A stretch of 64,000 nt of DNA, taken from Actinosynnema sp. ALI-1.44. Lineage in GTDB: Bacteria > Actinomycetota > Actinomycetes > Mycobacteriales > Pseudonocardiaceae. The notes under the pieces were generated by a model. The model made no database searches, was not told where the DNA came from, and saw nothing but the letters and a program-made list of their open reading frames with translations. This document shows, one piece after another, positions 49,877 to 52,404 of this stretch. The stretch lies in NCBI RefSeq assembly GCF_001984155.1, contig NZ_MTQO01000045.1, forward strand, positions 62,001 through 126,000, in the 5' to 3' direction. Made by a program: the position numbers and the translations under genes. Every line of letters starts with the position of its first letter. Position 1 is the first letter of the stretch.

Positions 49877-51460
49877 TCACGCCACGTGGCCACCCTGAAG
49901 GACCAGTTCCGCTCCTTCCCAGGTCCGCCGTAGCCACCGGTCGTGCGACGCGATCACGACGGCGCCGGGCGCGGAGCGCAACGCGTCTTCCAGTTCCTCG
50001 ACAAGGCTCAGCGACAGGTGGTTCGTCGGCTCGTCCAGCAGCAGCACGTCCGGCGGTTGGCCGATCAGGACGGCCAGTGCCAGTCTGCGTCGCTGACCGA
50101 CGGACAGGTGGCCTACTGGGCGGTCCAGGTCCCTCGGCGCGACCAGGCCGAGTTCGGCCAGCGGCGCCGAGCCCGTGTACAGCTGCCGCGGTGTCTTATC
50201 GGGATCCGGGAAGTCCACGTCCTGTTCGAGCAGGCCGACCCGGACGCCACGAGCACGGCGGACCTCCCCGTCGTCGGGACGCAACCGACCGGCCAGAACG
50301 TGAAGCAACGTCGATTTGCCCGCGCCATTCGAGCCTCGGACCATCAGCCTGTCCCCTGTCACGACATCGAGCTGACCGATGTCCAGCCGACCGCCGACCT
50401 TGACGTGGCGCACCGAGAGAGCCAGCTTGTCGTCGGGCGGCGTCGCAGTGAGTTTCGCTGCGAACCTCAGCGGCGCCGGAGGCTTGCGCACCTGGGTACG
50501 AGTCAGCTCGTCCAGCCGGTGTTGCGCGTTGCGCACACGCCGCGAAATCTGCTTCTGCACCCGGCCGCCGAAGAAGTCGTAACCCATTTTGTCGTTGTCA
50601 CGTGGTGGACGGTTGTACGCGACGTTGCGGGCCGTGACGTCAACGGACAGCTTGAGGCGCTTCAGCTCGTCCTGTTCGGACTCGTACTGCTGCTCCCAAC
50701 GTGCGCGCTCGGCGCGCTTGGAATCCAAGTAGTCCGTGTACGCGCCGCCGTACAGCGTGACCCCGCCACGAGCCGGGTCGAGGTCCACGATCGTCGTGCA
50801 CACGGCGTCCAGGAACACGCGGTCGTGCGACGCCACCACGACCACGCCCGGCAGTCGCGTCAGCTGGCTCTCCAGGAACGCCATCGCCTCGTCGTCGAGG
50901 TGGTTGGTCGGTTCGTCCAGCAGCAACGCCCGCGGCTGGCTGATCAACAGGGCCGCGAGCCCCAGCCGGGAACGTTGCCCGCCCGACAACGAACCGATGA
51001 CCCGGTCGTGCCGGACGCCGGACAACCCGAGTCCGTCCATGACGAGCGTGGCGCGTCGGTCGGCGTCCCAGATGTCATGTGCTTGGGCCCATTCGAGGAC
51101 GTCGCCGTATTCGGCCAGTGCCGCCGGGTCGGTCAGCCTGGTGCTGAGCTCCATCAGCCGTTGTTCGGCGTCACGGATTTCGGCCAGCGCCCTGTCTACG
51201 ACCTCAGCGACGGTCATGTCCAGGCCGTACGGCAGTTCCTGTGTAAGGAAGCCGCAGTCCGGCGGCCGGTGGATCTCGCCCGCGTCCGGCTCCTCGGCAC
51301 CTGCCAGCAACCGCAGCAGCGTGGACTTGCCGACGCCGTTCTCGCCGACCAAACCCAGGCGTTGTCCTGGGGAAACGGTCAGCGAGACGCTGTCGAGAAC
51401 GCGACGATCGCCGTAGACCTTGTCCAGATCACGCGCGACCAAGTAGGGGGTTGATGACAT
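49877..51460 (-). CDS. ABC-F family ATPase (antibiotic-resistance/ribosome-protection type)
   Basis: Soluble protein of 527 aa with two ABC domains and no membrane segment. NBD1: Walker A GLVGENGVGKST, signature LSGGQRSRLGLAALL, Walker B ALLLDEPTNHLDD. The interdomain linker (about 225-310; DSKRAERARWEQQYESEQDE and a long basic helix pair) is the arm that reaches the ribosomal P site. NBD2: MVRGSNGAGKST, LSVGQRRRLALAVLI, DVLLLDEPTNHLS. ABC-F proteins eject macrolides, lincosamides, streptogramins or pleuromutilins from the ribosome; which drug is not predictable here. The leader has an attenuator-like structure described separately. Confidence 0.92.
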   Translation of the reverse strand: MSSTPYLVARDLDKVYGDRRVLDSVSLTVSPGQRLGLVGENGVGKSTLLRLLAGAEEPDAGEIHRPPDCGFLTQELPYGLDMTVAEVVDRALAEIRDAEQRLMELSTRLTDPAALAEYGDVLEWAQAHDIWDADRRATLVMDGLGLSGVRHDRVIGSLSGGQRSRLGLAALLISQPRALLLDEPTNHLDDEAMAFLESQLTRLPGVVVVASHDRVFLDAVCTTIVDLDPARGGVTLYGGAYTDYLDSKRAERARWEQQYESEQDELKRLKLSVDVTARNVAYNRPPRDNDKMGYDFFGGRVQKQISRRVRNAQHRLDELTRTQVRKPPAPLRFAAKLTATPPDDKLALSVRHVKVGGRLDIGQLDVVTGDRLMVRGSNGAGKSTLLHVLAGRLRPDDGEVRRARGVRVGLLEQDVDFPDPDKTPRQLYTGSAPLAELGLVAPRDLDRPVGHLSVGQRRRLALAVLIGQPPDVLLLDEPTNHLSLSLVEELEDALRSAPGAVVIASHDRWLRRTWEGAELVLQGGHVA

Positions 51461-51546
51461 CGCACACCACCGGAATGGCTCGGTTGGGGACGTCCGCCGG
51501 GCGCTGGGCCTCGGGCGCGGACGAGGTGGCGATGTCAGTTCTCCAT
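51455..51546 (-). promoter_or_regulatory. Attenuator-like leader of the ABC-F gene with a three-codon ORF
   Basis: Read on the minus strand: a short ORF ATG GAG AAC TGA (51546-51535, peptide MEN). Its stop codon is the first three bases of TGACATCGCCACC (51537-51525), which pairs with GGTG...GCGATGTCA (51468-51455, one bulged base). The 3' arm contains the ABC-F start codon (51460-51458) and part of the GGTGG RBS (51471-51467). A second stem, CGTCCGC (51523-51517) with GCGGACG (51497-51491), is nested inside. TATAAC near 51577-51582 is a possible -10. The layout fits ribosome-dependent translational attenuation. Confidence 0.6.
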
Positions 51547-51602
51547 GATGGTTCCAAGGCTAACAAAGTCGGCAACCAGTTATAAGTTCTCCGCAAACGC
51601 TG

Positions 51603-51633
51603 CCGTATATTGCAGATGGTTCCGCAGATACGG
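51603..51633. promoter_or_regulatory. Inverted repeat overlapping the modA RBS, candidate molybdate-responsive operator
   Basis: CCGTAT (51603-51608) and ATACGG (51628-51633) are perfect 6-bp arms 19 nt apart, with the inner segments TTGCAGA and CCGCAGA also related. The right arm overlaps the GGAGG RBS (51632-51636). The half-site pattern is reminiscent of ModE operators (CG-TATAT ... ATA-CG), but no modE gene is in the window. Confidence 0.45.
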
Positions 51634-51642
51634 AGGATGCTT

Positions 51643-52404
51643 GTGAAGAAGCTGGCGGCCCTGCTCGTGGCCCCGATCCTGCTGGCCGGGTGTGGCAGCT
51701 CAGAACAGCCACCGGCCGCGCCGTCGGGTGCGGGCCAGCCGGTCACCGGCGAGGTCACGGTGTTCGCGGCGGCCTCGCTGACGGAGACGTTCACGCAGCT
51801 CGGCAAGGATTTCGAAGCCGCCAACCCCGGCGCCAAGGTGAAGTTCAACTTCGGCGGCAGCTCGGCGCTGGCGCAACAGATCAACCAGGGTGCGCCCGCT
51901 GACGTGTTCGCCTCGGCGAGCCCCGCCAACATGAAGCAGGTCGCCGAGACCGGCACGGTCACGTTCGTGAAGAACAAGCTGCAGATCGCGGTCGGCAAGG
52001 GCAACCCGCACAAGATGGCCTCACTGGCCGACGTACTGAAGCCGGAGATCAAGCTGGCGCTGTGCGCGGAGCAGGTGCCGTGCGGCGCCGCGGCCAAGAA
52101 GGCGTTCGAGGTCGCGAAGCTCACACCGAAGCCGGTCACGCTGGAGCAGGACGTCAAAGCGACGCTGACCAAGGTGAAGCTCGGCGAGGTGGACGCGGCA
52201 CTGGTGTACGAGACGGACGTGTCCGCAGCAGCCAAGGACGTCGACGGCGTCGACTTCCCCGAGGCCGCGCAGGCGGTCAACGACTACCCCATCGTGACGC
52301 TGCCCAAGGCGCGGAACGCCTCGGGCGGCAAGGCATTCATGGACTTCATCCTGTCCGACAAGGGCCGCCAGGTGTTGACCAAGGCAGGCTTCGATACTCC
52401 GTAA
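51643..52404 (+). CDS. modA: Molybdate ABC transporter substrate-binding lipoprotein
   Basis: Lipoprotein of 253 aa. The signal peptide is VKKLAALLVAPILLAGC with lipobox LAGC, followed by the ModA domain: VTVFAAASLTETFTQLGKDF, FNFGGSSALAQQINQGAPAD, VFASAS, LCAEQVPCGAAA, DAALVYETDV. The Ser residues of AAAS and GGSS and the Tyr of VYETD are the oxyanion ligands. It delivers molybdate or tungstate to ModB. The start is taken as GTG at 51643, because GGAGG is 6 nt upstream; the ATG at 51637 abuts the RBS. First gene of modABC. Confidence 0.95.
   Translation: MKKLAALLVAPILLAGCGSSEQPPAAPSGAGQPVTGEVTVFAAASLTETFTQLGKDFEAANPGAKVKFNFGGSSALAQQINQGAPADVFASASPANMKQVAETGTVTFVKNKLQIAVGKGNPHKMASLADVLKPEIKLALCAEQVPCGAAAKKAFEVAKLTPKPVTLEQDVKATLTKVKLGEVDAALVYETDVSAAAKDVDGVDFPEAAQAVNDYPIVTLPKARNASGGKAFMDFILSDKGRQVLTKAGFDTP

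Follow-up and report, generated by a model that had tools for sequence, protein, structure and literature searches.

The window, as we call the whole stretch of 64,000 nucleotides that was analysed, carries on its minus strand a gene for an ABC-F protein, preceded by an open reading frame of only three codons, ATG GAG AAC TGA (MEN). The locus raises the question of whether so small an upstream reading frame (uORF), together with the RNA structure around it, can control the expression of the gene. Read from the predicted -10 box as far as the start of ABC-F, the minus strand is TAGCCT TGGAACCATC ATG GAG AAC TGA CATCGCCACC ... GGTGGTGTGCG ATG (Table 1). The uORF stop overlaps the first bases of the 5' arm of an outer stem, UGACAUCGCCACC, which forms 13 pairs with the 3' arm, GGUGUGCGAUGUCA, and leaves one bulged U (51464). 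Within the 3' arm lie the ABC-F ATG (51460-51458) and the final two bases of a weak Shine-Dalgarno (SD)-like GGUGG (51471-51467). A 7-bp stem, CGUCCGC/GCGGACG, is nested inside (51523-51517 with 51497-51491), and the minimum free energy structure obtained by folding 51440-51600 contains both stems. An earlier, sequence-only reading had described the MEN frame as running into a 13-bp stem with one bulge and a nested 7-bp stem, and the sequence and the fold confirm this anatomy. The folding energy of the window leader taken alone is ordinary (z -1.39; 16 of 200 shuffles equal or better), and the single window sequence is therefore insufficient proof of the stem.

Table 1. Features of the ABC-F leader and its neighbourhood in window coordinates
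Feature	Position	Strand	Basis
Predicted -10 box TAGCCT, extended by TG (51565-51564)	51557-51562	-	Sequence; TANNNT placement across leaders
Predicted transcription start, A at uORF position -3	51549	-	Conserved -3 purine and -4 C, 6-7 nt past the -10 box
uORF MEN, without Shine-Dalgarno sequence	51535-51546	-	Sequence, conservation, anti-SD energies
5' arm of the sequestering stem, UGACAUCGCCACC	51525-51537	-	Sequence, fold, covariation
Nested hairpin, 7-bp stem and apical cap	51491-51523	-	Fold, covariation, conservation
Apical helix CGAGGC/GCCCG	51513-51508 with 51502-51498	-	Nearly invariant across the alignment
3' arm (51468-51455) with ABC-F start and SD-like GGUGG	51455-51471	-	Sequence, fold, covariation
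ABC-F gene, 527 aa, TlrC/CarA/OleB/SrmB-like (ARE5-like)	49877-51460	-	NCBIfam profile match
modA-like gene, divergent	51610-52404	+	

The best NCBIfam model for the ABC-F protein is NF000171, the producer type of TlrC, CarA, OleB and SrmB (3e-143); its score of 478 bits does not reach the cut-off of that model (800 bits), although no family scores better, and from such a below-cut-off match the gene product is to be called ARE5-like only. Between the divergent modA-like gene and the uORF, positions 51586-51630 hold two copies of a TNTGCGGA-like motif, which are largely kept across the genus.

All eight genomes of the genus of the window, Kibdelosporangium, encode the ABC-F protein; the records compared include K. 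aridum, K. persicum, K. banguiense and K. philippinense. The seven other genomes align with the window across the leader, with 72-89% DNA identity, and the uORF is present in all eight with varying codons (MEN in two, MES in four, MDI and MKI in one each). The outer stem of G005 is altered in both arms, and its pairing is mostly kept. In G007 (K. philippinense by L068) the gene is split into G007:C4:1966235-1967122 and 2111868-2112599 (L050, L051); the halves, which share about 15 codons, lie on one strand some 145 kb from each other, as if a large element had been inserted or the assembly were at fault. The leader is intact. A record titled Rhodococcus rhodnii has a protein 87% identical and a leader resembling that of G003 (L016), and to judge from these sequences its title is probably wrong.

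The leader extends beyond the genus. Among 19 homologue loci, 16 were read (the Clostridia loci L073-L075 lie outside these) and 13 carry the leader; of the other three, L066 sits behind another ABC-F gene, and L070 and L072 miss the 5' part of the gene. Five of the 13 belong to Kibdelosporangium and eight to other taxa: a Pseudonocardiaceae MAG (MDS), Amycolatopsis tucumanensis (MKN), Pseudonocardia bannensis (MRI), two Nocardioidaceae MAGs (MWI), and two Nocardiopsis and Glycomyces fuscus (MRM, MRH, MRL). A DNA match of 78% in the source genome (L002) falls inside an unrelated ORF and was dismissed as chance. A covariance model built from the 13 leaders (R1) matched 26 of the 298 genomes of the order that were searched, and once the window's own match is excluded, all 25 lie directly 5' of an ABC-F frame, with NTG-N6-TGA at the uORF position; the ABC-F frame of one of them, L094, is fragmentary. 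The second model (R2), searched in 394 genomes of the class, matched 37, and 34 of the 36 matches other than its own lie upstream of ABC-F genes (27 of 29 and seven of seven). Together the two models found the leader in 61 further genomes, and 59 of the 61 matches directly precede ABC-F frames, in searches whose stricter filters lose weak matches. Since the ATG and TGA columns are part of the models, the presence of the uORF at these matches is partly selected for; the free uORF codons and the identity of the downstream gene are not. Over the two draws the leader marks ABC-F genes in 28 genera of 11 families, the matches of genus g139 that precede another gene being excluded. A weak match before the second gene of a tandem (L142, E 0.0043), in which no three-codon uORF was noticed, was left uncounted.

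The two exceptions, L124 and L129 of genus g139, have a similar leader (GTG ATC CTC TGA, a GACGTC stem and an inner hairpin of the same kind) ahead of a conserved basic protein of 58 aa, MRNVFPY...QYRRH, whose L129 copy has no Pfam match. Their sequences suggest that the leader element may be modular.

Across the leaders the uORF peptide varies freely, and position, short length and UGA are constant; as the codons are free while start and stop are constant, the view of the uORF as a mere decoration of the stem was rejected. The 61 model matches include 48 uORFs of three codons, 11 of two codons (GTG ATC TGA, all in genus g126) and two of five codons (L166, L171), and these whole-codon differences are partly by construction, in-frame starts having been sought. 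Genus g126 reads GATGTGATCTGA (for instance L108 1512-1524, L115 and L116), so that an ATG-TGA start-stop overlaps the GTG ATC TGA, and from this sequence g126 may possess a functional uORF with no sense codon beyond the initiator (AUG-UGA). An ATG-TGA likewise overlaps a GTG start in L091 and L094.

Covariation provides the main evidence for the stems. In a 13-sequence MAFFT alignment with the structure set by hand (A3), 92.8% of the cells are paired, against at most 46.7% with slid partners. Changes on both sides affect eight pairs and 17 cells, where shuffles average 3.5 and 5.4, and 17 was reached by none of 500 shuffles; further pair types, one of five measures, number 16 against 13.4, a value reached by 48 of the 500. 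Larger alignments were fitted to the structure and so lean towards it: A4, of 39 sequences, has 101 double-change cells against 28.3 in shuffles, and A5, of 83 rows from 95 sources (12 without a match), has 282 against a shuffle mean of 99.5 and at most 42 in slid controls. In A5, whose rows include L124 and L129 (not ABC-F leaders) and the doubtful L142, 89.9% of the cells are paired and the covariation score is 0.376, where shuffles give 0.148 and slid controls no more than 0.044, related sequences being counted many times in this as in every covariation figure given here. The apical CGAGGC/GCCCG helix and its flank (51498-51513 in the window) are near-invariant in the 83 rows, beyond the needs of pairing.

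Pairs between the uORF stop and the ABC-F start are among the best kept in the 83 rows (columns 26-31 with 178-184). Start-codon pairing was assessable in 68 rows and not in 15, and 41 of the 68 have a model column on the first base of the ABC-F start; in these, U stands opposite 20 of 22 AUG starts, C opposite all 16 GUG starts and A opposite one of three UUG starts. For the remaining 27 the column does not fall on an in-frame start; those inspected (such as L092 and L095) have a paired GATGTC 7 nt upstream, over the SD. On these alignments, the joint change of start codon and 5' arm is the most telling pair for the stem. In Nocardiopsis and Glycomyces (L062-L064) the start codon of the stem (GATGTCG) lies about 95-100 nt ahead of the ABC-F ATG; it opens an ORF of 32 codons in L062, with a stop overlapping the ABC-F start (ATGA), is in frame with ABC-F in L063 and stands in another frame in L064.

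On the plain MAFFT alignment A1, RNAalifold recovered the inner hairpin and did not find the outer stem. Instead, the 3' arm (columns 134-141) was given a partner immediately ahead of the uORF (columns 25-31), and the uORF start was paired with its stop; two of six double-change pairs fall in the alternative helix of the 3' arm. We set this alternative aside on two grounds: the partner stretch precedes the predicted transcription start, and the arms contain gaps at that place. The outer stem was named by hand on A3 after A1, and the weighing of this order is left to the reader. Taken over the alignments, the outer stem is real and conserved. The sequence-only reading had proposed an attenuator-like leader in which a stem hides the ABC-F RBS and start; the two checks run on it, conservation of the ORF and stem in orthologous leaders (genus genomes and both model searches) and covariation (A3 and A5), came out positive and back the proposal.

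The uORF itself appears to start very near the end of its mRNA. Of 41 leaders, 38 have a TANNNT that begins at uORF position -16 or -15; elsewhere in 60 nt the box occurs once. Position -3 is a purine in all 41 and position -4 a C in 39; the T and A of the box stand outside the covariance model, which begins at -13. In the larger set of 68 leaders, TANNNT occurs within -19 to -13 in 52 and is absent from 16. By eye, genus g126 has CATCAT in its place, and all eight Kibdelosporangium leaders have TGN-TANNNT. No SD was found ahead of the uORF by anti-SD duplex energies, whose median is -1.7 kcal/mol over 68 leaders, compared with -2.8 for random 17-mers (one per locus) and -6.3 at the ABC-F start (61 leaders); the window values are -3.3 at the uORF and -6.4 kcal/mol at the ABC-F start. 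A TANNNT about 10-12 bp before the start codon is described as a sign of leaderless bacterial genes (PMC3160421), and Streptomyces promoters of the WblC type are reported mostly to start 7 or 8 bp past the -10 (PMC7157823). Because the box is shifted by 3-4 nt relative to strictly leaderless spacing, we infer a 5'UTR of about 3 nt, and the uORF is probably near-leaderless at best.

In Kibdelosporangium no -35 was found at 16-19 nt from TANNNT, only the extended -10. A TTGCGG (TTGCCG in the window) stands 7-8 nt before TANNNT, and if it were a real -35, transcription would begin inside or after the uORF, against a near-leaderless uORF. The WblC/WhiB7 promoter consensus is given as GAAAWY, 3 nt, TKGMNN, 16-19 nt, TANNNT (PMC7157823). 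Scored as at least seven of ten matches to GAAAWY-N3-TKGM at 16-19 nt from the -10, a WblC-like box is present in 26 of the 52 TANNNT leaders, against 4.7% of mononucleotide shuffles, and in none of the eight Kibdelosporangium leaders; a WblC/WhiB7 promoter was considered for the window, and its consensus was not matched there.

Folding calculations showed how far a ribosome on the uORF, represented by keeping the 17 nt from the uORF AUG unpaired, changes the energy needed to open the ABC-F start region. The set comprised 60 of the 68 leaders (three were dropped by hand and five for want of an in-frame start at 70-135 nt), with the ABC-F start placed by hand in 19 and by rule otherwise. Masking lowers the opening cost by a median of 4.9 kcal/mol; the gain exceeds 3 kcal/mol in 45 of the 60 leaders and in 31 of 300 middle-shuffled sequences. 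In the window the cost falls from 20.1 to 12.6 kcal/mol. The opening is only partial, with a median of 8.4 kcal/mol remaining; G005, of the window's own genus, gains little (1.3), and L086, L089, L107 and L117 show no gain or a negative one. In silico, the structure is one that a ribosome on the uORF would help to open. Extending the mask to codon 3 gives much the same easing. The sequence-only reading had a ribosome paused at the stop melting the stem: the easing holds in the folding calculations, and a pause at the stop is not required there, since a ribosome at the AUG eases opening of the ABC-F start about equally.

We therefore consider it fairly probable that the leader is a ribosome-mediated translational attenuator with a near-leaderless uORF and a stem predicted to be opened by a drug-stalled ribosome. 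Transcription would begin about 3 nt ahead of the minimal uORF, and ribosomes would load on its near-leaderless AUG without an SD. In uninduced cells they would read two more codons, terminate and depart, upon which the stem would re-form and bury the SD and start of ABC-F. On the short uORFs of are5sc and tiaA, drugs of the LSAP group arrest ribosomes at the start codon, according to the account in PMC12421871. Here we infer a similar induction, in which a drug, expected to be a lincosamide, streptogramin A or pleuromutilin, would arrest the ribosome at or just past the uORF start; covering about 17 nt from the AUG, the arrested ribosome would remove the base of the stem and expose the ABC-F start, so that the protection protein is made. 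The peptide would be irrelevant, and selection would act on the stem beginning within the footprint of the initiating ribosome. A broader proposal, that the leader represents a widespread actinobacterial leaderless 'sensor of initiation', in which loading of the 70S ribosome at the 5' tip of the mRNA is the switch and no peptide is needed, is offered tentatively, at rather less than even odds.

Under transcription attenuation, the nested GC-rich hairpin would be a premature terminator or a pause site of RNA polymerase, and a stalled ribosome would promote the read-through form. The lmrC leader of Streptomyces works in this manner by experiment (PMC8546547), and a transcriptional fusion of are5sc was induced and a terminator predicted for it (PMC12421871); the almost invariant apical helix would fit as well, and so would the partner that RNAalifold chose for the 3' arm, just before the uORF. 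In the window, however, no U-run follows the hairpin, so that no premature intrinsic terminator was recognised there and the leader was not classed as transcriptional, conceivable as terminators without a U-run are. The alternative partner also falls 5' of the position where transcription is predicted to begin, and a terminator would have no need of a covarying outer stem aimed, as this one is, at the ABC-F start codon. We regard this mechanism as unlikely.

That the apical helix and its flank are conserved past the needs of pairing could also indicate an RNA that binds a ligand or protein through this near-invariant element (CGAGG ... CCCGGCG and the conserved flanking loop), with the uORF secondary. 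The uORF start and UGA are, however, conserved equally, the downstream genes encode ribosome protection factors, and no Rfam family matched the leader at gathering score; the only matches at E up to 10, a sub-threshold hammerhead on the opposite strand and a snoRNA, were discarded. Such a binding role is very unlikely. Least probable of all is a basal-level device without a sensor, in which the paired uORF stop (UGA CAU) and ABC-F start (AUG UCA), brought side by side by the pairing in the window and among the best-kept pairs in the 83 rows, would pass ribosomes from stop to start in the absence of drugs: the pairing buries the start instead of presenting it, stop and start lie a variable number of nucleotides apart along the RNA (78-126 nt in most leaders of the opening set), and the gene family is usually induced by drugs.

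Translational attenuation by a near-leaderless uORF can be set beside known switches. In ermC-type attenuators a ribosome stalled on the leader ORF frees a sequestered RBS; ermC employs a sequence-specific peptide of 19 codons and alternative stems, whereas in the ABC-F leader the peptide is free and one stem may suffice. Mycobacterial leaderless short-ORF attenuators (poly-cysteine) sense cysteine through their codons, and share with the present leader a leaderless regulatory ORF, although cysteine rather than drugs is sensed. The 5'-terminal AUGs of E. coli mRNAs have reportedly been studied as well.

Closer relatives are found among resistance genes, where published cases already cover uORFs of three codons, ARE-ABCF genes attenuated through the ribosome, and sequestered SD sequences (PMC8546547, PMC12421871, PMC10201436). 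The sequence-only reading had held a three-codon leader to be among the shortest, with a possibly unusual mode of sensing; this finds no support, as published uORFs of the PLSA type are equally short, including MLV of are5sc (PMC12421871) and, in Firmicutes, where uORFs of three to four codons precede PLSA-type ABC-F genes as here, MR[I/M] of CplR and MIN of VmlR (PMC10201436), MK[L/Q] of VmlR2 and MAGN of LsaA. What is unusual, and went unremarked in that reading, is an SD-free uORF about 3 nt from the predicted mRNA 5' end. The are5sc and tiaA genes of Streptomyces coelicolor (MLV, MVGDDDISG) resemble the window gene in encoding ABC-F proteins of the same kind (ARE5) behind very short uORFs. 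As described in PMC12421871, they differ in having 5'UTRs of 232 and 194 nt, against about 3 nt predicted ahead of the uORF here, in the natural ribosome binding site of the are5sc uORF, and in an attenuation drawn as terminator and anti-terminator, whereas here the stem takes the ABC-F start itself. The terminator hairpin of cplR, like the present stem, also covers the SD, yet it lies in a 212-nt 5' region and has a poly-U terminator, a comparison of architecture and not of sequence (PMC10201436). The lmrC leader of Streptomyces lincolnensis is likewise an actinobacterial ARE5 leader under ribosome-mediated attenuation, but acts through a premature terminator, and loss of its uORF2 start makes expression constitutive (PMC8546547). 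Searches of the main text of open-licence PMC papers turned up neither this RNA element nor a leaderless uORF before an ABC-F gene, a scope beyond which the supplementary uORF table of PMC12421871 might include some of these leaders. Within the known kind of switch, what appears new, on the sequences compared, is the probably near-leaderless SD-free uORF combined with a stem on the ABC-F start.

The leader is one of several kinds found before related genes. In the order, the protein occurs at E <= 1e-120 in 52 of 298 genomes at 55 places, 25 of which, the window included, have an R1 match and 30 do not. All 30 were read, and 14 of them were also tested with R2. Five have a uORF of the same kind and an R2 match (L136, L137, L138, L140, L156). 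Eight, of genus g43, read GTGGCAGGTGACGACGACATCTCCGGGTGA, encoding a tiaA-type peptide, MAGDDDISG against the published MVGDDDISG, and from their sequences the tiaA-type uORF and the near-leaderless leader look like alternatives. Six stand behind another ABC-F gene by tblastn (L139, L141-L143, L150, L152), two have an SD-led ATG CTC CGG TGA (L157, L158), and the other nine were left unassigned, some of them having a short ORF but no R2 match or lying outside the R2-tested set.

Two paralogues in the source genome have leaders of their own. Upstream of an ABC-F gene 46% identical to that of the window (L004/L132, upstream of G000:C37:19313-20851), TAACCT stands 7 nt before a uORF that has eight codons from GTG, VMQTPMYL, or seven from ATG, and reads VIQQLLFL in the relative L053. 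The uORF start pairs with a stretch just before the SD in L004, L052 and L053, as GTGATGCA/TGCATCAC in L052, with one mismatch in L004, and as GTGATACAGCAA/TTGCTGTATCAC in L053; by its sequence, this resembles another leaderless attenuator, one that folds differently. A third ABC-F gene, 39% identical and outside the window (L006, G000:C41:362215), is preceded by ATG CTC GTT GCC GAG GAC GAC GTC TCC GGG TGA, which resembles the published tiaA uORF.

If the proposed mechanism is true, the ABC-F leader would represent a drug-sensing attenuator cut down to pure geometry, in which the mRNA carries a start codon at its very tip and a stem where the initiating ribosome can reach it. This geometry would account for the freedom of the peptide to vary, and would make the drug spectrum predictable as that of drugs which arrest ribosomes at start codons. 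It would also tie leaderless translation to antibiotic induction in actinobacteria, and the covariance model provides a searchable marker of possibly inducible ABC-F genes.
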